Source: Artemia franciscana (lineage: Eukaryota; Arthropoda; Branchiopoda; Anostraca; Artemiidae). Taken from it: 64,000 bases of DNA. Under the pieces are notes generated by a model. The model had not been told where the DNA came from, did no database searches, and saw nothing but the letters and a program-made list of their open reading frames with translations. Positions 4,495 through 64,000 of this stretch are shown one piece after another. The stretch spans positions 21,216,755 through 21,280,754 of the forward strand of contig NC_088871.1 in assembly GCF_032884065.1 (NCBI RefSeq), in the 5' to 3' direction. Made by a program: the position numbers and the translations under genes. The number at the start of each line of letters is the position of its first letter. Position 1 is the stretch's first letter.

Positions 4495-4680
4495 CACCGG
4501 GACACAGGGAATATAAACGTACACCGGGACACTCAAAGAGAAATTACAGACCGGGATGGGACACAAATGACGACCGGGACACAGGGAATATAAATGACGT
4601 CCGGGACACAGGGACACAACTACAACGGGAACGCCGGGGGCACAGGGGGATATATAAATGACGACGGGGACACAGGGAAT
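4495..4680 (+). repeat. CCGGGACAC minisatellite replacing Helitron core
   Basis: Irregular tandem array of units built from ACCGGGACACAGGGAATATA and AATGACGACCGGGACAC, about 27-30 bases each, with variants such as GCCGGGGGCACAGGGGG. It sits between an N-terminal Helitron fragment and the helicase C-terminus. The mirror-image derivative at 10,676-10,990 carries the same array on the minus strand. Confidence 0.8.
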
Positions 4681-4878
4681 ATTCGATTATCAATCACCAT
4701 CAACAAAGCTCAAGGGCAATCATTAGAAAAATGCGGTATAGATCTGAATACGGATTGTTTTTCCCATGGACAATTATATGTTGCATGTTCAAGAGTCGGT
4801 AAACCTGACACTCTATTTATATGCACAGACAATGGGACAGCGAAGAATGTTGTATATTCGCAAGTTTTACGTAGTTAA
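4681..4878 (+). pseudogene. Helitron helicase C-terminus
   Basis: The frame encodes the last part of the PIF1-type helicase domain of a Helitron transposase: SITINKAQGQSLEKCGIDL (the conserved motif near the end of superfamily 1B helicases), then GQLYVACSRVGKPDTLFI and a stop after SQVLRS. Only this C-terminal piece remains, fused upstream to the minisatellite. It marks the 3' end of the first Helitron copy on the plus arm. Confidence 0.85.
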
Positions 4879-4879
4879 A

Positions 4880-4881
<2 letters not shown>

Positions 4882-4918
<37 letters not shown>

Positions 4919-4932
4919 TCTATATATATAAA
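4882..4932. repeat. (TA)n microsatellite
   Basis: About 18 TA units, then TCTTC and more TATATATA, directly after the helicase stop codon. A shorter TA run occupies the matching place next to the Helitron end at 10,335. Confidence 0.9.
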
Positions 4933-5180
4933 AATAAGTTGTCTGTCCGTTACGCCAGATTATATCTTATCTATATATAAAAATGAAACTAAACTGAAAA
5001 GCAAACTGAAACTAAAAATGTAGAAACTGGGAATTGCATAAATATTTCTATATATTTTGACAATAGATTAAAGTAATTCGAAAACCTTATAACAGATATT
5101 TATAATTTTGAGGTTTATTATAAATTGTTGAGTGTTAGCATGCTTGGCACGTAAAATTTTTTCTAACAGTCAATGTTAGA

Positions 5181-7834
5181 ATGAACACTGACAAATTGAA
5201 AAACATTGAAAAAGATAGAATGTTACCAAAAAGCAAAACCAGGCTTGCGGTTCAAAGAGAAAGGGCCAGATTAAGAATGTGCAATTTACGTCAACGAAGG
5301 CGTGTCGAGGAACTACCAGAGCAACGCGAAACCAGACTTGCTTCTGAAAGAGAAAGTAAAAAAAGAAGGCGTGCCGAGGAATCACAAGAACAGCAAGAAA
5401 ACAGGCTTGCGGCTGATAGAGAAAGTAAGAAAAGAAAGCGTGCCGAGGAATCACAAGAGCAACCTGAAAATTATCGCCTGGCATTCAGGTACAGCCCAGT
5501 CGATGATTATAGTAGATGTGTTCAAATCGGGACTATGTGTAAAATTTGTCCCTATTGCAAGGCCTTGAAATTCAATGGTGAAACAATGGGAATGTGTTGC
5601 GCCTCAGGAAAAGTTAAACTTCCTCTATTGGCTGCACCACCAGAGCCATTGAAAACTTTGCTTACTGGAACTACGTCAGAATCTAAGCGTTTTTTATCAC
5701 AGATCAGAAAATATAACTCATGTTTCCAAATGACGTCGTTAGGTGCCCAAATCGAAAATCCAGATCAATTTATGCCTACTTTCAAAGTAAAAGGGCAAAT
5801 TTATCATAAAGCAGGGTCCCTTCTACCATTCTCAGGCGAGAATCATAAATTTTTACAATTGTACTTCATCAGTGATAGAAATTCTGAATTGAATGCACGT
5901 TGTGAAATTTCTCCCAACGTTGAAAGGACAATCGTTTCCCAATTGCAACATCTTTTCCACGAAAATAATATTTTAGTGCGTCTGTTCAAAACAGCCATCG
6001 ATTTGATGCCTACTGATACGCATAAAATTGTTATTTCCGCTGACAAAACGCCTCCTGGCCAACATGTGCGTAGATACAATGCTCCAACTATCGACGAAGT
6101 GGCAATCGTTATGGTCGGTGATCAGTTTTTATCTCGAGATATTATTCTTTATAAGCGAAACGCTCAGTTGGTAAGAATTGCTGAAACTCATCGATACTAC
6201 GATGCCCTACAATACCTATCATTTTTTGGGATGGAGCCGACGGCTATCACTTTAATATTAAATTGATGAATCCAGCCACTAACAAAGAAATGAATAAGAA
6301 ATGCAGTGCAATGCATTATTATTCCTATAGACTAATGATTCGGCAGGATGAAGATAATTACATTTTAAAATGACGCCAATTGTTTCACCAATATGTCGTT
6401 GATATGTATGCAAAAATTGAATCAGAACGTTTGCTATATATCCGCCTGAACCAGACCAAGCTCCGCTCTGAACAATACATTCATTTGCGAGATGCAGTTG
6501 TAAATGACGGTAATACCACAAACGTTGGAAGATTAACGATTTTACCTTCGTCATATGCTGGCAGTCCCCGTCATATGCATGAATATGCTCAAGATGCTAT
6601 TGCGTATGTTCGTCTCTATGGTCGTCCAGATTTATTTATTACATTTACATGTAATCAATCTTGGGACGAGATACAGCAGCTTTTACTTCAAGGACAATCG
6701 GCGGTTCATAGACATGACATTACGGCCCATGTCTTCCGGCAAAAGTTGAAATCACTGATAAACTACATAGTAAAACTTGAAGTATTTGGGTCAGTGCGAT
6801 GCTGGATGTACTCAGTGGAATGGCAAAAACGAGGTTTGCCACACGCACATATACTAATCTGGCTACATAATAAAATTACGTCTAACGAAATTGATGATGT
6901 GATTTCCGCTGAAATACCTGATGAAAATATCGATAAGGGGTTATATGATGTTGTTGTAAAAAATATGATACATGGACCTTGCGGTGCATTGAACGAAAAT
7001 TCACCATGCATGGCCAAAGGAAAGTGCACAAAGCAATATCCTCCAATTTTAGTATCCAACACAATTACTGGCAATGATGGTTGCCCACAATATAGAAGAA
7101 GATCTACTGAAGATGGCGGTAAAACAGCAATAATAAAGAAGCGTAACGGTACCACCATCGAAGTAGATAACCAGTGGGTTGTTCCATATTCCCCATTATT
7201 ATCAAAAACATTTAATGCACACATAAACGTTGAATACTGTAACTCCGTAAAGGCAATCAAATACATATGTAAATACGTCAACAAAGGCAGTGACATGGCA
7301 GTTTTTGGCTTGCAGTCCGAAATCAAAGATATCGACGAAATCGTAAAATATCAGGCTGGAAGATACATCAGCAGTAATGAAGCTGTTTGGCGAATTCTTT
7401 CATTTCCGATACATGAACGTAGTCCAGCTGTTGTTCACTTAGCGGTACATTTACAGAATGGTCAACGTGTTTATTTCTCGGACACCAACGTGCAACAAAG
7501 AGCCCTGAATCCACCGGATACAAAGTTAACTGCTTTCTTTTCGCTATGCAAAAATGATTATTTTGCAAAAAAACTGCTGTATACTGAAGTGCCTTCGTAT
7601 TACACGTGGAATACTAAAAATAAAGTATTTGAACGTCGAAAACAGGGTAAGTCAGTCGACGGCCAACCTACCATCTTCAAAGATACCACGATAGGAAGAC
7701 TCTACACCGTTCACCCCAATCAACATGAATGCTTCTTTCTACGCCTGCTTTTGGTGAATGTACCCGGTCCAACGTCCTTTGAGTATTTGAGAACTGTAAA
7801 CGGTACTATACATGACACTTACCGTAGTGCATGC
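5181..7834 (+). pseudogene. Helitron Rep transposase, N-terminal two thirds (plus copy)
   Basis: This is a decayed Rep/helicase transposase gene for rolling-circle transposition. The N-terminus (5,181-6,212) has a basic repeat (RESKKRKRAEESQEQ type), a CxxC cluster near CKICPYCKALKF and the Helitron-like N-terminal domain. The Rep nuclease shows the HUH motif in RGLPHAHILIWL (about 6,830) and the paired tyrosines in KYICKYVNKG (about 7,260-7,290). Two lesions kill it: a one-base loss near 6,214 (the frame resumes at WDGADGYHFN) and an in-frame TGA at 6,371-6,373. The remainder (6,380 on) is open until 7,834, where the sequence abruptly continues as the minus-strand copy; the helicase is therefore missing from this arm. 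Confidence 0.9.
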
Positions 7835-8940
7835 CAGAATCAGTTTTATCACAAACGTTTTACCAGTACCTCCTGGCGCATCCAAAAAGAAAATTTCTCC
7901 AACGTTGTTTTCGACACAATGCATTATCCTATCATAAATGTCTTCTTGTTCCGACGTTAACTTGGAAATGTTATTTTGTACATACGACAATAGATCACTC
8001 TTACTGTAACTTTGTTCACGATCCAATTCTACACATGTCGAAACAGCAGCGGTACGATTAGGTGAAGGCATTCCCAAATCCTGAAGAGGTTTGTTTGCCA
8101 TACATACGCACAAATCTTCTATAATAACTAAAGTGTAGTTATAAATTTCTGATGTAAAATCAAAAGTCATATCCGACGTCTCTAACCGTTTTCGATGGAG
8201 TATATCTTCGGACATTTTCGATTTATATTTTCCCCATAACTCTGTAGGAGCTGAAGGAGAGCAAGTTGTTAGAATGATTCCAAACAATGCACGAATTTGA
8301 CTTGGAGTTGACGTTTCGCACACGTCATTGATGCAGTTATCCCAGTGTTGGTCATTCTCCAATAAATTCAGAGCTTGGCATGCACTACGGTAAGTGTCAT
8401 GTATAGTACCGTTTACAGTTCTCAAATACTCAAAGGACGTCGGACCGGGTACATTCTCCAAAAGCAGGCGTAGAAAGAAGCATTCATGTTGATTGGGGTG
8501 AACGGTGTAGAGTCTTCCTATCGTGGTATCTTTGAAGATGGTAGGTTGGCCGTCGACTGACTTACCCTGTTTTCGACGTTCAAATACTTTATTTTTAGTA
8601 TTCCACGTGTAATACGAAGGCACTTCAGTATACAGCAGTTTTTTTGCAAAAAGAATCATTTTTGCATAGCGAAAAGAAAGCAGTTAACTTTGTATCCGGT
8701 GGATTCAGGGCTCTTTGTTGCACGTTGGATCCCGAAAAATAAACACGTTGACCATTCTGTAAATGTACCGCTAAGTGAACAACAGCTGGACTACTTTCAT
8801 GTATCGGAAATGAAAGAATTCGCCAAACAGCTTCATTACTGTTTATGTATCTTCCAGCCTGATATTGTACGATTTCGTCGATATCTTTGATTTCGGACTG
8901 CAAGCCAAAAACTGCCATGTCACTGCCTTTGTTGACGTAT
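7834..8940 (-). pseudogene. Helitron Rep tail and helicase Walker A (minus copy)
   Basis: Read from 8,940 down, this copy matches the plus copy's 7,265-7,834 (VNKGSDMAVFG through SACQ) and then goes on into the helicase. The Walker A motif DAPGGTGKTFVIK lies near 7,860. A one-base change near 8,645 shifts the frame between the two open segments (8,625-8,918 and 7,739-8,659). The remaining helicase motifs are absent because the sequence turns back into the plus copy at 7,834. Confidence 0.88.
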
Positions 8941-8944
8941 TTAA

Positions 8945-9549
8945 TTTATTTATAACCCACTAAGTACATTAAACTGTGGAGTAAATACACAAAAAAAGAA
9001 AAAACAAGACAAAAAACATAACAACATAAATAACAGCAGCATAACAACATACAACATAAATAAATTACCTCCATTCAAAAGATGGTCAAAAACACCGATC
9101 ATTTGCCGAGTTTTAAGACATATATCTTTAGATAAATGTTTCAGTCGCGAGGGCGCATCAACGATGTCAAATTTAGAGACGACTGTATGATTCCGATACC
9201 ACCGAGGCAGACGTAGCAAATACTTGCAATACTTAAAATATCCTGAGCGTATTTTCTGTGTATCCTTCTTGCGAAGGAGGAAAGCAAAACCAGAAAGATA
9301 AAAAACAGCAGGGGCACAAAAACTAGAATAAAGACGGCATAGTCCATTTCGGTTATATCGACCACGATTTGATGAAATTTTCGCGTATCCAACCCGCATA
9401 CTTTTCAGCACGCTGGACGTAATAGCGGAGCAAGTAGACGAAAGTGACGTGGAAAAAGAGAGACCCAACCATTTAATACTTGCTGAACATGGTATAGCTG
9501 AAGAACCCAAGCAAAGAGGTGATGCTGGTGGAGGACTCCCAAAACACAA
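8945..9549 (-). mobile_element. LINE reverse-transcriptase C-terminal fragment inside the Helitron
   Basis: A 199-codon minus-strand frame resembles the thumb and C-terminal part of a non-LTR reverse transcriptase: IKWLGLSFSTSLSSTCS, SMRVGYAKISSNRGRYNRNG and KYLLRLPRWYRNHTVVS. No palm motifs (YADD type) are present. It interrupts the minus Helitron between the AHINV and KYVNKG codons of the Rep domain, removing the segment with the first catalytic tyrosine. It is therefore younger than the Helitron copy or was captured by it. Confidence 0.7.
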
Positions 9550-9561
9550 AAATGCACACGT

Positions 9562-10211
9562 TTATGTGTGCATTAAATAATTGCCAGTAATTGTGTTGGG
9601 CACTAAAAGTCGAGGATATTGCTTTGTGCACCTTCCTTTGGCCATGCATGGTGAATTTTCGTTCAGTGCACTGCAAGGTCCATGTATCACGTTTTTTACA
9701 ACAATATCATATAACCCCTTATCGACATTTTCATCAGGTATTTCAGCGGAAATCACATCATCAATTTCGTTAGAAGTAATTTTATAATGTAGCCAGATTA
9801 GTATATGTGCGTGTGGCAATCCTCGTTTTTGCCATTCACTGAGTACATCCAGCATCGCACTGACCCAGGTTGCTATTGTGATTCCTCGGCACGCTTTCTT
9901 TTGGTGATTTGTCTTTGAGACGCAAGCCTAATTTCACGCTGTTGTTGTGATTCCTCGGCACGCTTTCTTTTCTTACTTTCTCTATCAGCAGCAAGCCTGT
10001 TTTCTTGCTGTTCTTGTGATTCCTCGGCAAACCTTCTTTTTTCACTTTCTCTTTTAGCAGCAAGTCTGGTTTCGCGTTGCTCTGGTAGTTCCTCGGCACG
10101 CTTTCTGTTCTTACTTTCTCTATCAGAAGCAAGTTTTTTGGCATAGACTCTTTGAGCAGCTTCCTCGGCTGTTGCCATTGTAGGTTCTTCAGTCATTTTA
10201 CAATTAAACAT
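9562..10211 (-). pseudogene. Helitron N-terminus fused to Rep by deletion (minus copy)
   Basis: From 10,211 down: an ATG-initiated frame with four basic repeats of the RESKKRKRAEESQ type (10,211-9,873), then, after a break, the Rep core with the HUH motif RGLPHAHILIWL (9,855-9,562). About 1.3 kb that separate these in the plus copy is absent, so the N-terminal repeats run almost directly into the codons for GSVRCWM. The LINE fragment follows at 9,549. Confidence 0.85.
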
Positions 10212-10347
10212 TTTTCCGTGAACGAATGTCTAAAATACCTTTAATGACGTCATCGTCATAACAAAAATGACGACAACTAACTTCATGACGACATGATGAC
10301 ATGACGTCAGTAGACAGACACACAGACAAACAACATATATATATATA

Positions 10348-10470
10348 CTAGCTATTGGGGTGGCCTTTCGCGCCACCCCAACACCTAGTTGGTGGGGCCT
10401 TTCGCGCCCCCCCAAGCCCTCCCGCGCGCGTAAGTCGTTACGCGCCATATTAGTTACGCGCCATTGTAGT
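10348..10470 (-). mobile_element. Helitron 3' terminal hairpins ending CTAG
   Basis: On the minus strand the helicase C-terminus is followed by GGCGCGTAACGACTTACGCGCG, a GGGGGGCGCGAAAGGCCCC hairpin, GGTGTTGGGGTGGCGCG/CCACCCCAAT and a terminal CTAG at 10,348-10,351 next to a TA run. GC-rich 3' hairpins closing on CTRR beside T are typical of Helitrons and Helentrons. The next copy begins on the far side of the TA run. Confidence 0.75.
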
Positions 10471-10522
10471 TGTGTCCCTGTGTCCCACCTGTGAATAGAG
10501 ATAGATATAAATATATGTTTTT

Positions 10523-10670
10523 AACTACGTAAAACATGCGAATATACAACATTCTTCGCTGTCCCATTGTCTGTGCATATAAATAGATTGTCAGGTTTAC
10601 TGACTCTTGAACATGCAACATATAATTGTCCATGGGAAAAACAATCTGTATTCAGATCTATACCTCATTA
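10523..10670 (-). pseudogene. Helitron helicase C-terminus (minus derivative)
   Basis: Reverse-strand counterpart of 4,730-4,878: it encodes SHGQLYVACSRV-like and NGTAKNVVYS sequence and the same stop before AAAACATATAT. It lies between the minisatellite (10,676-10,990) and the terminal hairpins, so this derivative keeps N-terminus, minisatellite, helicase tail and 3' end. Confidence 0.8.
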
Positions 10671-10675
10671 TTCTA

Positions 10676-10990
10676 ATGATGTGTCCCTGTGTCCGGGTCG
10701 TCATTTATATTCCCTGTGTCCCGGTCGTCATTTGTGTCCCGGTGTCCCAGATTGTAATTTCTCTTTGAGTGTCCCGGTCGTCATTTATATATCCCGCCTG
10801 TGCCCCCGGCGTCCCCGTTGTAGTTGTGTCCCTGTGTCCCGGTCGTCATTTATATTCCCTGTGTCCCGGTCGTGATTTGTGTCCGGGTGTCCCAGTCTGT
10901 AATTTCTCTTTGAGGTTCCCGGTCGTCACTTATATTCCCTCTGTCTCGGTCGTCATTTGTGTCTCGGTCTGTAATTTCTCTTTGAATGTT
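10676..10990 (-). repeat. CCGGGACAC minisatellite, minus orientation
   Basis: Tandem units of GTGTCCCGGTCGTCATTTATATTCCCT (given in parts: GTGTCCCGGTCGTCATTT, then ATATTCCCT) with variants, the reverse complement of the array at 4,495-4,680. About ten units are seen. The spurious open frames over it reflect unit lengths divisible by three. Confidence 0.85.
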
Positions 10991-54326: not shown

Positions 54327-57300
54327 TCAATGCATTCTTTTATATTTTTCTTCTTGTTTACTATCCCGTTTATTCACATTGCTCAAGTCCCTCTTGTTAT
54401 TGATATTACTTGAATATCCCAATGCATCCTCATTTTGTTTATTAGAAACTCCATTCTTCTGTTTGTTTATAAATCCATTGTTATTCGGACTTTTTCTTCC
54501 ACTTCTCATACCTTTAGACTCATATCCTATCACGTTGGGCAGATGTGTATTTTTTTCTGAATCTTTATTAATTGAGTAGCTGGCTCGACTATTCGGTTCG
54601 GTTTCAGCGTAATTTTCATCGTATTTCGACTTCGACCTATTATCTTCTTGTTTAACACCGTGCTGTTTTCTACTTCCTTCCCTAGCATTGGTTCCTGAAT
54701 AGAGTTCGGGCTCTTTGTCTTCAAAAGTTCTCCTGTTCAAACTACTCTTACTATGTGAAAAATCACTTGCTTTTTCTTCTGCTGGATCTTTAATTCGACT
54801 TCTAGACTCTGCTAAAAGGGTATAACCATCTTTTGTGTCTTTTCTTCTATATCTATAAGCTGATTCTGCTCTCTGATTCTTCCCCAAATGGATATTGCTA
54901 TTTTTAGAAGAACGGTCATTGACTGGTATCCCATTTCTACTATTTATTTCACTAGAAAGAGAAAATCGTCTACCATTTTCAGTTTTAAGTCCTGAATCTG
55001 GGTTTATCGAGGGGCCTGCGCTACTTTCTTCAATTTCTTCATAAATATGATCATATTCATTAGCTATAGTAGGGGCATTTTGAGAATTTGCATTAGTAAA
55101 GGAGCCTTGTGCGTTTGATTTGGTGTTGTTCGTTGATCCCATTGGTGTTCCAAACTTATTAACATAAGGTTCAATAATTTGAGATTCTAATTCAGCCATC
55201 TTTTGTTTGCTTGAACCACCATCTGCTTTGGCAATATCATTTTCTTTACCCTTTCTAGCTTTTATGCTGTAGAAAGATCCTCTGGGAAAATCTTCTTCTT
55301 CAGATGCATCTTTTTCAGGGTAACTCTTCTCCTGACTTTTTGGCTTTTGGTAGTTTTGTTGGTTATTTTTATTAATTATTTTAAACCGCGGATTGTCTTG
55401 CATTGAGGAATGGTTTTCCATTGTGTTTGTTCCATCATATTGTGAAATATTTAAATTATGTTGATGTGTCATCCTTCCTTCATCGGTGAATTCTTTGCTG
55501 TTACCATCTTCACCGGTCCAAAAATAACGATTCTTTTGCTTTGCTCCTTTTTCATTCTCGTTTCTATTCCCATGTAAATGATTTTTTCTATATTCTCCAG
55601 ATTCTTCAGTATCACTATAATTATTTATGTTATTATCACCACCATTATGTATCTTCTCTGTCTTGTTGCTTTTGTCAGACGGTTTTTGGGTTGGCATCCC
55701 ATTTGAGTTTGCAAATCTTCCCGATGAAAACCCTTTAGAATCATTTTCATCTTGACTATCTTCTGATTTCTCATTTAACGCTTGTTGTTTTCTACTTCTA
55801 TTCTTGTTTGTGCTATTATTCTCGTTGTTAGCTTGATCAGCGGTGTCTCTTGAGCTTTCGTGATATTTCCAAGACAAACTCGATTTTGAGCGGCTTTTTG
55901 GTCTTTTCTGATTTTTGTGAGTATCGCCTTCATCGCTTGTATTATCACTTCCATTTTCATTTACCTTTTCCTTTGCAAAATTTTCTCGCTCATTTTTAGT
56001 GCTTATAAGATTTGATTTTTTGTTTCTGTTATTTCTTTCAGTTTTGTTTGAGCTATTCTTCTCATTATGATCTTCTCCCGCCTTATTATTACTTTCTTCC
56101 GGTTCTGCAGCATTTCTACATTTAAAGATGTCATTTTCAGCTTTTCCTGAGTATTTTTCATTATCTTCCTTGGCACCATATGAAGAGGCTGATGATTTCG
56201 ATGTAAAGTTTTCTTTGTCGTCATTTTTCAACTTATTTTCATTTAAATTTGAAACAACTGATTTGTCACCCTTTAATATATTTTTACCGTTTTTCTTTGA
56301 TTCAGCTTTAACCTCGTTAAGACTAGATGTCTCTGGTATTGAATTTCGTCCTCCATAGTCAGGGTAATTGTCATCATTATGGTCTGCAAATGTGTTTTTT
56401 GGCTGATATTGCAAATTACCTTTTGCTGCTTGTTTGTGTTCAGCACTTTCATTCTTACTAAGAAAATTATTTTGTTCTTTTTCATATGTAGGTCTTAAAA
56501 AAATGCCATCAGAATTATTCGTGTTTTTTTCTTTATTCTTCGAAGATGGATCTACGTATGTCATCGATTGATCAGAGTTTCCCCCGAACCGCAGGTTTGA
56601 TTCACCATAAGTACTTTCAACTTCTTCTTGAATCTTGTAAATAAAGTCTCCACCATTTACAGGAGGTAGTTCACTGTCCACGACGGAACTCTTTGAGTAT
56701 GATATATCTAATTTTGACTGATCAGTTGGATATAGTCCTCCTGTGACGTCTCTTGGACTGCTTTGCAATTCTCGAAAGTTTCTACCAGCTCTCCCATTGC
56801 TCTTTATACCGTTATCCACACCGTGACGCTGATTATAACTCTGCTTCTTAGATTGGCTGGAGTTGAAGCTATCTTTCGAAACATTTTCTTCTTGATTTTC
56901 CATGTTTGACATTTTTCCGTATCGATCAGCGTTACCATTTTGATATTGAGTCTCTTCTTCAAACCCAATTGATTTTGAGCTACCATCTCTTACTGTTTCT
57001 TGGTCATTTTCTTTCGAAGAACCGCCAACATTTCGATTGTGCTGTCCTAGATCTTGTTTGTAAGATTTATTCAATAATATTGCATATCCTTTTGATCGTG
57101 CTTTTTGGTCTTCATTTAGTGAATACATACTTCCATCTTTGCCTCCATAATCGCTTTCATCTGAATTTGAACGAAGATTTTTAAAATCATTAGACCTCGT
57201 TCTCTTTTCTTTTGAAGTTTTATCATAACCTTCATTCGACAAATTTTTATTCTCTTCTTCATCATACTTATTATTTTCTTCTCCATCGTCCTGTTTACTT

Positions 57301-57551
57301 TCTTTTCTATATTTATCACGACTGCCCTCGGAATTTCTGTCTTCAGATTGACTGGATTGGGCGCTTCCTTTTCTCGATTCTTCTTCACTTGAAGAGTTTT
57401 GAGCCTCATCGTCTGAATCTTCAGAAACATATTTATCACTCGTAGGAGGAAATACAGCAACCTTAGATTTATCCTTTGAGTGTTTCAATATTCCCATGAC
57501 TTCTTCGTACAAATCTCCAAAAATTTCTTCATGCTGTCTATCACCAGACAC
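54327..57551 (-). CDS. large disordered Ser/Asn/Lys/Glu-rich protein, exon with stop
   Basis: One uninterrupted exon of 1,074 codons. The frame opens at GTG, immediately after a strong acceptor (poly-T then AG at 57,553-57,552), so the true start lies in an unseen upstream exon; the stop TGA is at 54,327. The protein is dominated by Ser, Asn, Lys, Glu, Asp and Gln with almost no Cys or Trp, no signal peptide and no membrane span, and looks intrinsically disordered. Ordered islands are the N-terminal EEIFGDLYEEVMGILKHSKD, GGDFIYKIQEEVESTYG and NEYDHIYEEIEE (Tyr-837). YEEV (Tyr-15) and YEEI resemble SH2-binding sites. I recognise no family. Its conservation of frame over 3.2 kb argues strongly that it is real. 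Confidence 0.75.
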   Translation of the reverse strand: MSGDRQHEEIFGDLYEEVMGILKHSKDKSKVAVFPPTSDKYVSEDSDDEAQNSSSEEESRKGSAQSSQSEDRNSEGSRDKYRKESKQDDGEENNKYDEEENKNLSNEGYDKTSKEKRTRSNDFKNLRSNSDESDYGGKDGSMYSLNEDQKARSKGYAILLNKSYKQDLGQHNRNVGGSSKENDQETVRDGSSKSIGFEEETQYQNGNADRYGKMSNMENQEENVSKDSFNSSQSKKQSYNQRHGVDNGIKSNGRAGRNFRELQSSPRDVTGGLYPTDQSKLDISYSKSSVVDSELPPVNGGDFIYKIQEEVESTYGESNLRFGGNSDQSMTYVDPSSKNKEKNTNNSDGIFLRPTYEKEQNNFLSKNESAEHKQAAKGNLQYQPKNTFADHNDDNYPDYGGRNSIPETSSLNEVKAESKKNGKNILKGDKSVVSNLNENKLKNDDKENFTSKSSASSYGAKEDNEKYSGKAENDIFKCRNAAEPEESNNKAGEDHNEKNSSNKTERNNRNKKSNLISTKNERENFAKEKVNENGSDNTSDEGDTHKNQKRPKSRSKSSLSWKYHESSRDTADQANNENNSTNKNRSRKQQALNEKSEDSQDENDSKGFSSGRFANSNGMPTQKPSDKSNKTEKIHNGGDNNINNYSDTEESGEYRKNHLHGNRNENEKGAKQKNRYFWTGEDGNSKEFTDEGRMTHQHNLNISQYDGTNTMENHSSMQDNPRFKIINKNNQQNYQKPKSQEKSYPEKDASEEEDFPRGSFYSIKARKGKENDIAKADGGSSKQKMAELESQIIEPYVNKFGTPMGSTNNTKSNAQGSFTNANSQNAPTIANEYDHIYEEIEESSAGPSINPDSGLKTENGRRFSLSSEINSRNGIPVNDRSSKNSNIHLGKNQRAESAYRYRRKDTKDGYTLLAESRSRIKDPAEEKASDFSHSKSSLNRRTFEDKEPELYSGTNAREGSRKQHGVKQEDNRSKSKYDENYAETEPNSRASYSINKDSEKNTHLPNVIGYESKGMRSGRKSPNNNGFINKQKNGVSNKQNEDALGYSSNINNKRDLSNVNKRDSKQEEKYKRMH

Positions 57552-57846: not shown

Positions 57847-59287
57847 TCAAACAGTTCGTGGTAACGAACTGTAGTAAGGAGCGACCCGGCTCAATAGTAA
57901 CCAAAACTCTAAAAAATTGAATTTTGATATCAATAGCTACATCAAAAGAATCGCATTTTAATGCTGATTTTAAATATATAAGTTTCATCAAGTTTAGTCT
58001 TACCCATCAAAAGTTACGAGCCTGAGAAAATGTGCCTTATTTAGGAAAATAGGGGGAAACACCCCCTAAAAGTCGTAGGATCTTAACGAAAATCACACCG
58101 TCAGATTCAGCGTATCAGAGAACCCTACTGTAGAAGTTTCAAGCTCCTACCTACAAAAATGTGGAATTTTGTATTTTTTGCCAGAAGACAAATCACGGGT
58201 GCGTGTTTATTTTTATTTTTTTTTTTTTTTCCAGGGGTCATCGTATCGACCAAGTGGTCCTAGAATGTCGCAAGAGGGCTCATTCCAACGGAAATGAAAA
58301 GTTCTTGTGCCCTTTTTAAGTGACCAAAAAAATTGGAGGGCATCTAGGCCCCCTCCAACGCTCATTTTTTCCCAAAGTCAACGGATCAAAACTTTGAGAT
58401 AGCCATTTTGTTCAGCATAGTCGAAAACCATAATAACTATGTCTTTGGGGATGACTTACTCCCCCACAATCCCTGGGGGAGGGGCTGCAAGTTACAAACT
58501 TTTACCAGTGTTTACATATAGTAATGGTTATTGGGAAGTGTACAGACGTTTTCAGGGGATTTTATTTTGTTTGGAGGTGGGGCTGAGGAGAGGGGGCTAA
58601 TTTGGAGGATCTTTCCTTGGAGGAATCTGTCATGGGGAAGAAAAATTCAATGAAAAGGGCGCAGGATTCTCTAGCATTACTATAAGAACACAATAAAAAA
58701 TAAACATGAAAACGTTCTTTCAAATGAAAGGAAAAAGTAGCATTGAAACTTAAAACGAAGAGAGATTATGACGCATATGAGGGGTTCTAAAAATACTTTA
58801 GCGTAAAAAGCGAGGTATTTAGGAGGAGATAAATACCTTGCTCTTTATGCTAAAGTATTTTTAGTAATTTCAACTATTTATTCTACGGCCTTTCTGATTC
58901 AGGGGTCATTCTTAAAGAATTGGGACGAAACTTACGATTTAGTGTAAAGAGCGAGGTATTAACGAGGGTACAAACCCCCTCGTATACATAATAAAAATAT
59001 AAGGTTATGAAAGTTTGTTACGTAAGTTAATTATTAAGTTACGTTTATTTTTTACTAATAAAAACGTTCGTTAAAAATTAAAAGTTCTAGTTGCCTTTTT
59101 AAGTAACCGAAAAATTGGAGGGCAACTAGGCCTCCTTCTCCACCCTCAAAATCGTCTGATCAAAACTAAGAGAAAGCCATTTAGCCAAAAAAAGAATTAA
59201 TATACAAATTTCATTTTAATAATTTATGTGCGGAGAGCCAAAACCAAACATGCATTAATTCAAAAACGTTCAGAAATTAAATAAAAA
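57847..59287 (-). repeat. fold-back element A, copy 7 (minus)
   Basis: Starts with the terminal hairpin CAGTTCGTGGTAACGAACTG and runs through the G/C block and palindrome 2 (about 58,770-58,990) to the TTAAATAAA end. Palindrome 1 at its far end has collapsed (see 59,288-59,335). Confidence 0.8.
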
Positions 59288-59335
59288 ACTAATTTTTTTA
59301 GCTGAAAGTAAGGAGCGACCTTACTTTCAGCTAAA
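59288..59335. repeat. collapsed palindrome 1
   Basis: TTTAGCTGAAAGTAAGG and CCTTACTTTCAGCTAAA are separated by only AGCGA here, whereas other copies have about 250 bases of hairpin between them. The hairpin body has been lost, leaving its base. Confidence 0.8.
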
Positions 59336-62300
59336 AAAAACTGACTTCGATTTTTGGGTCCCAAGGTCGGACGTCTCCAGACCATAAAGTTGGGGTAGCA
59401 GCTTGCTAATTACGGCATCAAAGGAATATAGAACTATCTCAAAATGGGACAACTATTGTTGATTTCGGTACTCAGGAGATCGATACTCAGTAAAGTAACG
59501 TAAATAGCAAAATAGTATCTCTGTGTGTACTGGATACTGGTGGAATCATTGTTTGCTACAACCGTTATGCTACAAAAACGTAAATTAATAGTATAGGTGG
59601 GAGGAAATTGGGGACAAACTTATTTGGATTTACTGCTTCCAAACCTCCCCCATTCCCGCAAAAACCGAAACAACAAATTCTTAAGCCTCCAAAATTTTTG
59701 CTAGTAAATATTCCTGGCTTCTCTACCTTATTTACAGAAATATACTACCATGCTTTGCATTTGTATGTTGGTTTTCTAAGTCTGCCACTATTAGCAAGGG
59801 TCTTTTCTCGACTTTAGATGAGTTTATGCCCCTAAATTAGCAGGCTGCTATTCTTAATCCGGATCAAAATGAGTGCCGATCTGGGTAGTGAAGGCCCGAT
59901 TGTAGTCAAGGCAGTTCAAGTATTTAACATGCCAAAGTATTGTCTTACGCTTAGGTAAACGGTTATTATTTCTAATTAACATATTAATAGAAATATGTTT
60001 ATTCATTTTTAACTGTTGCTGCTAATTTGGGTAATTTTGTAAAGGACCCCTTATAGAAAACAATTATGTGAAATACCCGTAAAAAAATTGAACTTAACAT
60101 TATAGTCTGTAATTTAAGTCCTTTTGGATCAGTCCATGCCAAATCATCTAAAACCGCAAGGTACATCTACAAAACTAATTCAAATAAACTGACTCGTTCC
60201 GATATTTGTAGAATATTAAGAACTAGTGCTTTACTGAAAACATAAAACCGAGCCAACAAAATAGTATGTTTCCTTCAGGGCAAAAATTCCCTAAGTAGCC
60301 ACCGGAAAATAAAAGACTAAATTACAAAGCTCTCGATAGTCTTTCACTAGTCATAATGTTGATAACTTTTAGTATACAGTTATAATTGTCAAAAAAACTC
60401 AAGCAAGCTCTGTTTTCGTTTTTGCAGTTCGAAAGATACAATCATTCCAACTTTGGAACAATTTAGCAGAGAATTCCGACAAAGCCATAAAGTAAGATGA
60501 TTAACAAGCCAGAACTAGAAAAATAAAATTGAAATTAAAAAACAACAAAAATTTAAAAACAAATTTTAACTTATTCAAATTACCTCTATGCCTTTATGAA
60601 CTTTATAGGGTATTCACTCTGTTCACGGGGTGGCAAGGGCAACTCTAAAGTTTGGATAGCAGTCCCCATAGGATATTCGCGACCAGCCTGAACGAGGTAA
60701 AATTGGGGCACCCTGAATCAGGAGTCTCAGAGGGACCAGGTGCAGCATTTCTTTAATTCCAAAAAGTGTATTGCCAGTTTTCTTTTCCTGTGGTCGAAAT
60801 AAATTTTACTTCAATCTTTTTTATTACTTCTTTTTCCACTGAATCGAAAGTTTAATAATGGTACAAAAAGCCACGCAGCATTTGCTTACTCATTGCACAC
60901 TTCGAACAAATACTTTGTGCTTAATGTCCTGATGAATTGTCCTCTCCCTCCTCCCACAAAAAAAGAAAGATATAGGCTCCCATCGCAAATACATGTAGAC
61001 ACTCCTTAAGAATTTTTAAGGCAGATTTTTGTATGTTCTTATTGATCTCTACACTTTTTTTGCTACAGTAGATTACATTTAGTAGATTTTTCCTCCATCC
61101 CTAAATTATGACCACTCTATATGAATCATTGTTTACGTGCCTGTAACTGCAGTAAAAAAAGTTGAGAATTCCTTGCCTATATCATACGATTTAAGAAGGT
61201 GGTTGTAAGAGAGCTAGAGTAGACATCTGAATTAACAAGCCTTTACCTAAACATAGAGCAATCCTCGTTTAAAATTAAATAAAAACACTAATTTTTTCAG
61301 CTGAAAGTAAGGAGCGACATTAAAACTTAAAACGAACAGAAATTACTCCGTATATGAAAGGGTTGTCCCCTTCGCAATCCCTCGCTCTTTACGCTAAAGT
61401 TTGACTCTTTGCCACAATTCTACTTTTTAAAACAATTAAAAGCTTTAGCGTAAAGAGTGAGGGATTGCGGAGGGGACAACCCATTTCATATACGGAGTAA
61501 TTTCTGTTCGTTTTAAGTTTTAATGTCGCTCCTTACTTTCAGCTAAAAAAATTAGTTTTTTTATTTAATTTTAAACGAGGATTGCTCTATGTTTAGGTAA
61601 AGGCTTGTTAATTCAGATGTCTACTCTAGCTCTCTTACAACCACCTTCTTAAATCGTATGATATAGGCAAGGAATTCTCAACTTTTTTTTACTGCAGTTA
61701 CAGGCACGTAAACAGTGATTCATATAGAGTGGTCATAATTTAGGGATGGAGGAAAAATCTACTAAATGTAATCTACTGTAGCAAAAAAAGTGTAGAGATC
61801 AATAAGAACATACAAAAATCTGCCTTAAAAATTCTTAAGGAGTGTCTACATGTATTTGCGATGGGAGCCTATATCTTTCTTTTTTTGTGGGAGGAGAGAG
61901 AGGACATTTCATCAGAACATTAAGCACAAAGTATTTGTTCGAAGTGTGCAATGAGTAAGCAAATGCTGCGTGGCTTTTTGTACCATTATTAAACTTTCGA
62001 TTCAGTGGAAAAAGAAGTAATAAAAAAGATTGAAGTAAAATTTATTTCGACCACAGAAAAAGAAAACTGGCAATACGCTTTTTGGAATTAAAGAAATGCT
62101 GCATCTGGTCCCTCTGAGACTCCTGATTCAGGGATTGCCCCAATTTTACCTCGTTCAGGCTGGTCGCGAATATCCTATGGGGACTACTATCCGAACTTTA
62201 GAGTTGCCCTTGCCACCCCGTGAACAGAGTGAATACCCTATAAAGTTCGTAAAGGCATAGAGGTAATTTGAATAAGTTAAAATTTGTTTTTAAATTTTTG

Positions 62301-63515
62301 TTGTTTTTTAATTTCAATTATATTTTTCTAGTTCTGGCTTGTTAATCATCTTACTTTATGCCTTTGTCGGAATTCTCTGCTAAATTGTTCCCAAGTTGGA
62401 ATGATTATATCTTTCGAACTGGAAAAACGAAAACTGAGCTTGCTTGAGTTTTTTTGACAATTATAACTGTATACTAAAAGTTATCAACATTATGACTAGT
62501 GAAAGGCTATCGAGAGCTTTGTAATTTAGTCTTTTATTTTCCAGTTGGCTACTTAGGGAATTTTTGCCCTGAAGGAAACATACTATTTTGTGGGCTCGGT
62601 TTTATGTTTTCAGTAAAGCACTAGTTCTTAATATTCTACAAATATCGGAACGAGTCAGTTTATTTGAATTAGTTTTGTAGATGTACCTTGCGGTGTTAGA
62701 TGATTTGGCATGGACTGATCCAAAAGGACTTAAATTACAGACTATAATGTTAAGTTCAATTTTTTTACGGGTATTTCACATAATTGTTTTCTATAAGGGG
62801 TCCTTTACAAAATTACCCAAATTAGCAACAACAGTTAAAAATGAATAAACATATTTCTATTAATATGTTAATAATTCATAGAAATAATAACCGTTTACCT
62901 AAGCGTAAGACAATACTTTGGCATGTTAAATACTTGAACTGCCTTGACTAAAATCGGGCCTTCACTACCCAGATCGGCACTCATTTTGATCCGGATTAAG
63001 AATAGCAGCCTGCTAATTTAGGGGCATAAACTCATCTAAAGTCGAGAAAACACCCTTGCTAATAGTGGCAGACTTAGAAAACCAACATACAAATGCAAAG
63101 CATGGTAGTATATTTCTGTAAATAAGGTAGAGAAGCCAGGAATATTTACTAGCAAAAATTTTGGAGGCTTAAGAATTTGTTGTTTCGGTTTTTGCGGGAA
63201 TGGGGGAGGTTTGGAAGCAGTAAATCCAAATAAGTTTGTCCCCTATTTCCTCCCACCTATACTATTAACTTACGTTTTTGTAGCATAACGGTTGTAGCAA
63301 ACAATGATTCCACCAGTATCCAGTACACACAGAGATACTATTTTGCTATTTACGTTACTTTACTGAGTATCGATCTCCTGAGTACCGAAATTAACAATAG
63401 TTGTCCCATTTTGAGATAGTTCTATATTCCTTTGATGCCGTAATTAGCAAGCTGCTACCCCAACTTTATGATCTGGAGACATCCGACCTTGGGACCCAAA
63501 AATCGAAGTTAGTTT
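59332..63515. repeat. 4.2-kb near-perfect palindrome
   Basis: The left arm (59,332-61,42x) is repeated in inverse orientation in the right arm (to 63,515). Examples: CGATTTTTGGGTCCCAAGGT at 59,349 and 63,480s, and GTATCTCTGTGTGTACTGGA at 59,514 and 63,310s. Arms differ by scattered single substitutions (for instance GACCATAAAG versus GATCATAAAG, and AATTGGGGAC versus AATAGGGGAC), so they are not identical. The symmetry centre, near 61,421-61,423, falls inside a fold-back MITE. No gene is recognised in the arms. Confidence 0.92.
61272..61572. repeat. MITE form of element A (palindrome 1 alone) at palindrome centre
   Basis: 300-bp unit from AATTAAATAAA to TTTATTTAATT. Stems include CTCCGTATATGAAA/TTTCATATACGGAG and the private pair GCAATCCCTC/GAGGGATTGC, with a loop near TTTGCCACAATTCTAC. 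It has no coding capacity. Confidence 0.85.
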
Positions 63516-63540
63516 TATTGCACCTGTGCAATTGCAGCAG

Positions 63541-63566
63541 GCCAGGCGTTTTTCGCCTCGCCTGGC
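63541..63566. repeat. short GC hairpin
   Basis: GCCAGGCG and CGCCTGGC form 8 pairs around a 10-base loop, just outside the right end of the large palindrome. Function unknown; it could be an RNA hairpin or chance. Confidence 0.4.
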
Positions 63567-64000
63567 ATCTGAAATTTAGATGTCTCGTGGAAACTTGTTT
63601 AACCGTAAACTCCCCAGATTCACGGTGGCTGAGCCCACAGAGTCAAACCCCTGGATGCCATCCCGACCCAAAGGATTGGCTTTACCTAGAGTCGAATACC
63701 TGTCCCAAACACTTCAATGTAATTGGACGAATAAGTTAAGCCCTTGTTTACTTGATAAACACTTGTTTAGACAATATTATATATTTGTTCTATTTAAAAT
63801 AAAAGTAATATTTGGTTCAATTCATTTATTTTTATCCAAAATTAAAATTTAAAGAACGCTTTACTAAAAAATTGTATTCTATAGTTAGGTTGCTAACCCT
63901 ATAGTTTTTGCAAAAAAAACGAAACGACTTAGTACTTACAAAAAAACTTATGTTTTTTTAACGAGTTAAAAATTAACTCGTTTTTTAATCGATAAGCACT
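63567..64000. other. window end, no gene seen
   Basis: An open frame at 63,580-63,852 lacks splice context and similarity. The last 60 bases contain an AACGAGTTAAAAATTAACTCGTT palindrome (63,961-63,983). Confidence 0.4.

Follow-up and report, generated by a model that had tools for sequence, protein, structure and literature searches.

Fold-back inverted duplications have been studied mainly in yeast systems and in human disease. They have been attributed to the pairing of a strand with itself and its subsequent extension (PMC3907307; PMC7467729), and the inverted copies described in these papers flank a spacer which is bounded by short inverted sequences. The palindrome of Artemia franciscana analysed here can be described in the same terms, with the stem of a hairpin as the inverted sequence and its loop as the spacer. 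However, the cases in these sources are terminal or involve a large duplication and are resolved by secondary rearrangement (PMC3907307; PMC7467729), whereas the Artemia case is interstitial, appears to come back to the element it left within 1.9 kb, and is seated in a transposon end. Short-range template switching in great apes is also similar, as a reverse-strand copy is made before the original template is resumed, and such events are enriched at poly(dA:dT) runs (PMC7954356), the kind of sequence at which the Artemia junction lies. The inverted copy number variants generated by ODIRA (PMC4689423, PMC10766183) can likewise be regarded as template-switching kin of the Artemia case. Unlike in these template-switch systems, the arm is 1.9 kb long in Artemia and the turn is fixed at a preformed stem of about 125 bp; at a second locus (L058) the arm is 76 bp. 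In FoSTeST, or gap-filling transposon duplication (PMC8277862), nearby host sequence is written into a DNA transposon by template switching, as seems to be the case here, and the product is a transposon-filler-transposon structure made without transposition. The FoSTeST hosts are TIR transposons with fillers, and the passages describing them do not mention a hairpin, whereas in Artemia the filler would be the element's own 3' flank, inverted, with the turn at the terminal hairpin. Among papers screened by title and the opening of the abstract, we found none that deals with palindromes of flanking DNA at the hairpin of a Helitron or Helentron, PMC8277862 being close in spirit. Fold-back inverted duplication, template switching and template-switch filling of transposons are known kinds of event, and what appears to be new is that the event sits in the terminal hairpin of an element which is abundant and rolling-circle-like, that it seemingly returns into this element, and that it apparently recurs.

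The palindrome was confirmed in the window, by which we mean the whole 64,000-base stretch of DNA that was analysed (C9:21216755-21280754). A sequence-only reading had placed it at 59332..63515 with arms 97-98% alike, and both its coordinates, within a few bases (59337-63516), and its estimate of identity proved right. In the self-comparison of the window, the inverted match pairs 59337-63519 with 63516-59334 at 97.4% identity over 4,196 columns, hairpin loop included. Outside the hairpin, the left arm (59337..61271, minus strand) and the right arm (61572..63516, plus strand) differ at 29 of 1,933 aligned positions (1.5%), 18 of these substitutions being transitions, and by 4 internal indels, and the differences are scattered over the whole arm length rather than clustered. 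Homology at the outer ends stops at a T-run, at about 59337 and 63516, and the last three bases up to 63519 are a partial match by eye. The right flank (63520..64000, plus strand), which opens with an old dispersed repeat of about 100 bp from about 63532, has no counterpart left of the left arm. A single sequence that was merely read back on itself, a possibility which the sequence-only reading had set aside because of the point differences between the arms, is disfavoured by the divergence of the arms together with the two different flanks. When the arm was used as a query against the 1.27-Gb genome, two of the 40 scored places were these arms and all the others matched only an old dispersed repeat of about 260 bp, which lies inside the left arm at 60155..60421 (no strand assigned) and is 69-84% identical to its other genomic matches. 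Apart from this repeat, the arms are single-copy DNA among those scored places, and therefore no transposon family has the shape of the 4.2-kb palindrome. A paralogue of the left flank was sought in the genome as an empty site, and the focal locus was the sole match. An Rfam scan of the window gave no match at gathering scores.

As the sequence-only reading had stated, the symmetry axis lies inside a hairpin of about 300 bp. This hairpin (61272..61571, plus strand; 300 nt) folds as DNA at -139.2 kcal/mol compared with a shuffle mean of -27.3 (z -29.4), and none of 200 shuffles was as good. It is a complete 3'-terminal hairpin of a transposable element without the element body, and its loop is in the element's own orientation, the forward one, at 18 of 18 diagnostic mid sites. 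In the consensus, the stem measures about 125 bp and, outside its A/T-rich base, is asymmetric at one site. We had considered whether the self-complementarity of about 91% reflects unhomogenised hairpin halves; this was wrong, as nearly all asymmetric sites sit in the loop. The central hairpin differs from the consensus at 4 of 297 positions, all of them in the left stem, a one-sided placement that, few as the sites are, counts against the fold-back reading given below. As in fold-back inverted duplications, the inverted copies are split by a single-copy spacer with inverted edge sequences, the arms abut the stem, and the arms are otherwise single-copy local DNA.

The axis repeat had been called a MITE, and this name could not be kept. 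A free-standing MITE is a short element with terminal inverted repeats and a target duplication, but in all 70 other copies examined the hairpin is the 3' end of an element of about 1.74 kb with the element body beside it, and none was free-standing. The search with 61272-61571 listed 39 other copies (95-98% identity), all of which were retrieved, and 31 of 39 other listed copies of a second subfamily were added; the 70 were thus selected for intact hairpins with the closest match rather than drawn at random. The family is dispersed, with thousands of first-look candidates in each genome search. The element starts with TCAAACAGTTCG at its 5' end and ends with TTTAA, and its consensus is non-coding, with no open frame above 74 aa. 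An exact 13-bp subterminal inverted repeat lies at consensus positions 27-39 and 1698-1710, at distances of 26 nt and 33 nt from the 5' and 3' ends, respectively. The non-coding body and the 3' palindrome are shared with HINE/DINE-1 (PMC4067079) and Helitrons (PMC4778049), as these are described there, and the subterminal repeats may be a further likeness. The HINE repeats are 11-15 bp and, in mites, lie at distances of 2-4 and 38-60 (PMC4067079), compared with 26 and 33 nt here. The 3' palindrome is of the Helentron/HINE kind, although its stem is about 125 bp compared with 5-10 bp in mite HINEs (PMC4067079) and a 19-bp palindrome in Helraiser (PMC4778049). The ends are not those of a canonical Helitron: the 5' TC is present, but the 3' end is TTTAA and not CTRR or like it, and the base before the 5' end is mostly A rather than part of a TT context. 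By eye, A precedes the 5' TC in 12 of 15 readable other copies, and T follows TTTAA in all 15. A lack of target duplication, another possible likeness to HINEs and Helitrons, was seen by eye at the sole site where it can be read, L033, where a tandem repeat surrounds the element and A and T are the neighbouring bases. By its sequence features, the element appears Helitron/Helentron-like and resembles HINE/DINE-1, short of a firm classification.

The window holds two young pieces of this element. A full-length copy with a collapsed 3' hairpin runs from 57847 to about 59336 on the plus strand, has the 5' end TCAAACAG, and joins the left arm inside an A-run at 59333-59340. Its collapsed, truncated hairpin (59267 to about 59336, plus strand) contains a perfect 33-nt palindrome at 59300-59332. 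As the sequence-only reading had stated, a collapsed copy of the axis repeat lies at the start of the left arm. The body piece 57847-59323 corresponds to consensus 1-1494 at 97.1% and the central hairpin piece 61266-61566 to consensus 1436-1739 at 97.4%; all remaining window matches longer than 120 bp to the young consensus are at 75-91%. The body at 57847 differs from the consensus at 27 of 1,427 positions, and both focal pieces (27/1,427 and 4/297) fall inside the range of the 13 copies used to build the consensus (body 1.4-4.2%, hairpin 0.3-2.7%). Both pieces have the same orientation and lie at opposite ends of the left arm. No other young copy is present in the window, and the two therefore look like a single element that is interrupted by its own 3' flank, copied in inverse orientation. 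The arms are 1.5% apart pairwise, or about 0.75% each, which suggests that the palindrome is younger than the element insertion.

Other features of the window were also noted. On the minus strand at 54327-57551, a frame of 1,074 codons runs without interruption and ends about 300 bases before the element; its product is rich in Ser, Asn, Lys and Glu, and no Pfam match was found for it. A second inverted duplication (7259-7836 vs 8376-8951, 97.4%, with a spacer of about 540 bp) sits in a Helitron with Rep and PIF1 domains (5139-8683), and its axis differs from the focal hairpin. Weaker inverted matches (90-95%) occur in the region 4496-10957 outside this pair.

We consider it likely that fold-back synthesis at the hairpin copied about 1.93 kb of flank and then rejoined the element at a 4-nt T-run. 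The starting state would be one young element whose body begins at 57847 and which ends in its 3' hairpin, followed by the right arm as the original 3' flank and then by the right flank. Synthesis entering from the flank, or begun at a break in the hairpin, would fold back at the stem of about 125 bp, where a 3' end inside the stem could prime on itself and the adjacent flank would serve as template. The copying strand would then return to the element's own hairpin at the T-run common to arm and element, which is TTTT by eye at the outer junction, and would leave a collapsed hairpin there. The product would be element, collapsed hairpin, inverted flank, whole hairpin, flank and right flank, with the left arm as the copy under this one-element model, and the arms would have diverged by 1.5% after the event. 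That there was one event and that copying ran this way is our inference; a return of the copying strand to the same element is indicated mainly by the collapsed repeat at the left, which the sequence-only reading had mentioned but not used. The remnant palindrome at 59300-59332 may have arisen by deletion during hairpin bypass or by another snap-back of small size. As the agent, a fork template switch with return and snap-back break repair with microhomology joining are about equally plausible. The symmetric stems prevent a choice between these two, and the stem asymmetries were likewise uninformative on which stem templated which.

Inverted sequence abutting both sides of the hairpin was found at 3 of the 70 other copies (L058, L074 and L080), compared with none of 400 random 300-bp axes in retrieved genomic sequence, which serve as a chance control and not as a genome-wide base rate. 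The sequence-only reading had suggested a search for further palindromes centred on this repeat. One of the three, L058, has the same layout as the focal locus; 67 of the 70 copies have no abutting inverted sequence of this kind. At L058 (wider context L106), an element (1-1515) with an intact 5' end is followed by 83 nt, the whole hairpin and the flank. The 83-nt segment holds 76 bp of inverted 3' flank at 96% identity, and the return junction has about 7 nt of filler and no microhomology. Only the focal locus and L058 have this exact architecture in common. L074 runs in the opposite direction: beyond its hairpin lies an inverted copy of 86 bp of the element body, at 100% identity. At L080 (context L105, 2388-5043), two elements of different subfamilies lie tail to tail with one hairpin in common, an arrangement that may reflect recombination or nested insertion rather than fold-back. 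Given the smaller example of L058, the sequences suggest that fold-back at the hairpin occurred more than once in the genome.

Several further loci fall outside this count. At L092, an inverted match to the element body starts 258 bases from the hairpin. L107 and L108 were considered as partial fold-backs and rejected, since each is a tail-to-tail pair of elements in which both members have a hairpin. These two loci, at C15:20.60 Mb and C15:19.89 Mb and thus 0.7 Mb apart, share 1,051 bp at 99.9% identity, which reflects either a recent segmental duplication or an unpurged haplotype. At L065 (352-649), the 3' hairpin points the other way with respect to the element body, which gives the appearance of a stem-loop inverted in place. 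L048 (4324-4796) has a small inverted pair with arms of about 155 bp (97.5%) and a spacer of about 160 bp, away from the hairpin copy.

An artefact of the assembly or library, with the hairpin as the site of a false head-to-head join of two haplotypes or of a fold-back read, appears unlikely. The assembly is a purged diploid one, built with Peregrine from PacBio reads of 20-kb libraries, with haplotig purging and polishing (PMC11492255), so the 1.5% divergence of the arms could be allelic, and the near-identical pair on C15 shows that duplicates in the assembly may be uncertain. However, with different flanks on the two sides, the assembly would have to be wrong at two independent junctions, of which one lies in the hairpin of the same element, and the window contains no N. 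Arms produced by such an artefact would be identical or would differ by sequencing error, but, haplotype differences apart, the reported QV of 47.62 (PMC11492255) predicts 0.07 errors over both arms compared with the 29 substitutions and 4 indels seen. In addition, L058 repeats the layout within about 500 bp, well under the length of one long read. The L058 layout also bears on a hairpin-capped break, in which a cruciform is cut at the hairpin and replicated into a dicentric palindrome, and a second break is joined back to the element. This route is known at long inverted repeats (PMC7467729; PMC3907307) and predicts the same axis. It requires a dicentric intermediate, however, and the second break must fall only 1.9 kb out and rejoin the very same hairpin, while the 76-bp arms of L058 are hard to obtain in this way; we regard it as quite improbable. 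The origin first proposed, by hairpin-capped or template-switched replication at the repeat, is therefore kept in part: the palindrome is best explained by fold-back or template switching at the hairpin, and a hairpin-capped chromosome is conceivable but not required.

The two young pieces could instead be independent elements, one a hairpin inserted in the middle of an older palindrome, the other an insertion that hit the outer end by chance, as the family is dense in the window. This reading is disfavoured by the lack of free-standing hairpins among the 70 copies, by the same layout at L058, and by the fact that both pieces belong to one young subfamily, in the same orientation, exactly at the ends of one arm, and it is very improbable in our judgement. 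That the whole 4.2 kb is a single transposon with giant terminal inverted repeats is suggested by the shape alone; it is contradicted by the lack of any other full or long arm match among the 40 scored places in the genome, and hardly deserves any weight. Fold-back synthesis from the terminal hairpin of one element is the reading that we prefer for the focal locus.

Going beyond this locus, the 3' hairpin may be a recurrent fold-back primer in Artemia which writes inverted host flank or its own body beside itself, a generalization that we put forward tentatively and hold somewhat doubtful. If it is true, the hairpin would produce new 3' ends of the element as well as palindromes that range in size from tens of bases to kilobases, possibly with the aid of single-stranded rolling-circle intermediates. 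A dispersed family with a long, near-perfect hairpin may hold a germline record of fold-back, with arms of varied length and age, from which the rate, polarity and return rules of fold-back could be tabulated across the genome. In addition, such a family would illustrate how the end of a transposon duplicates adjacent single-copy host DNA without moving it.
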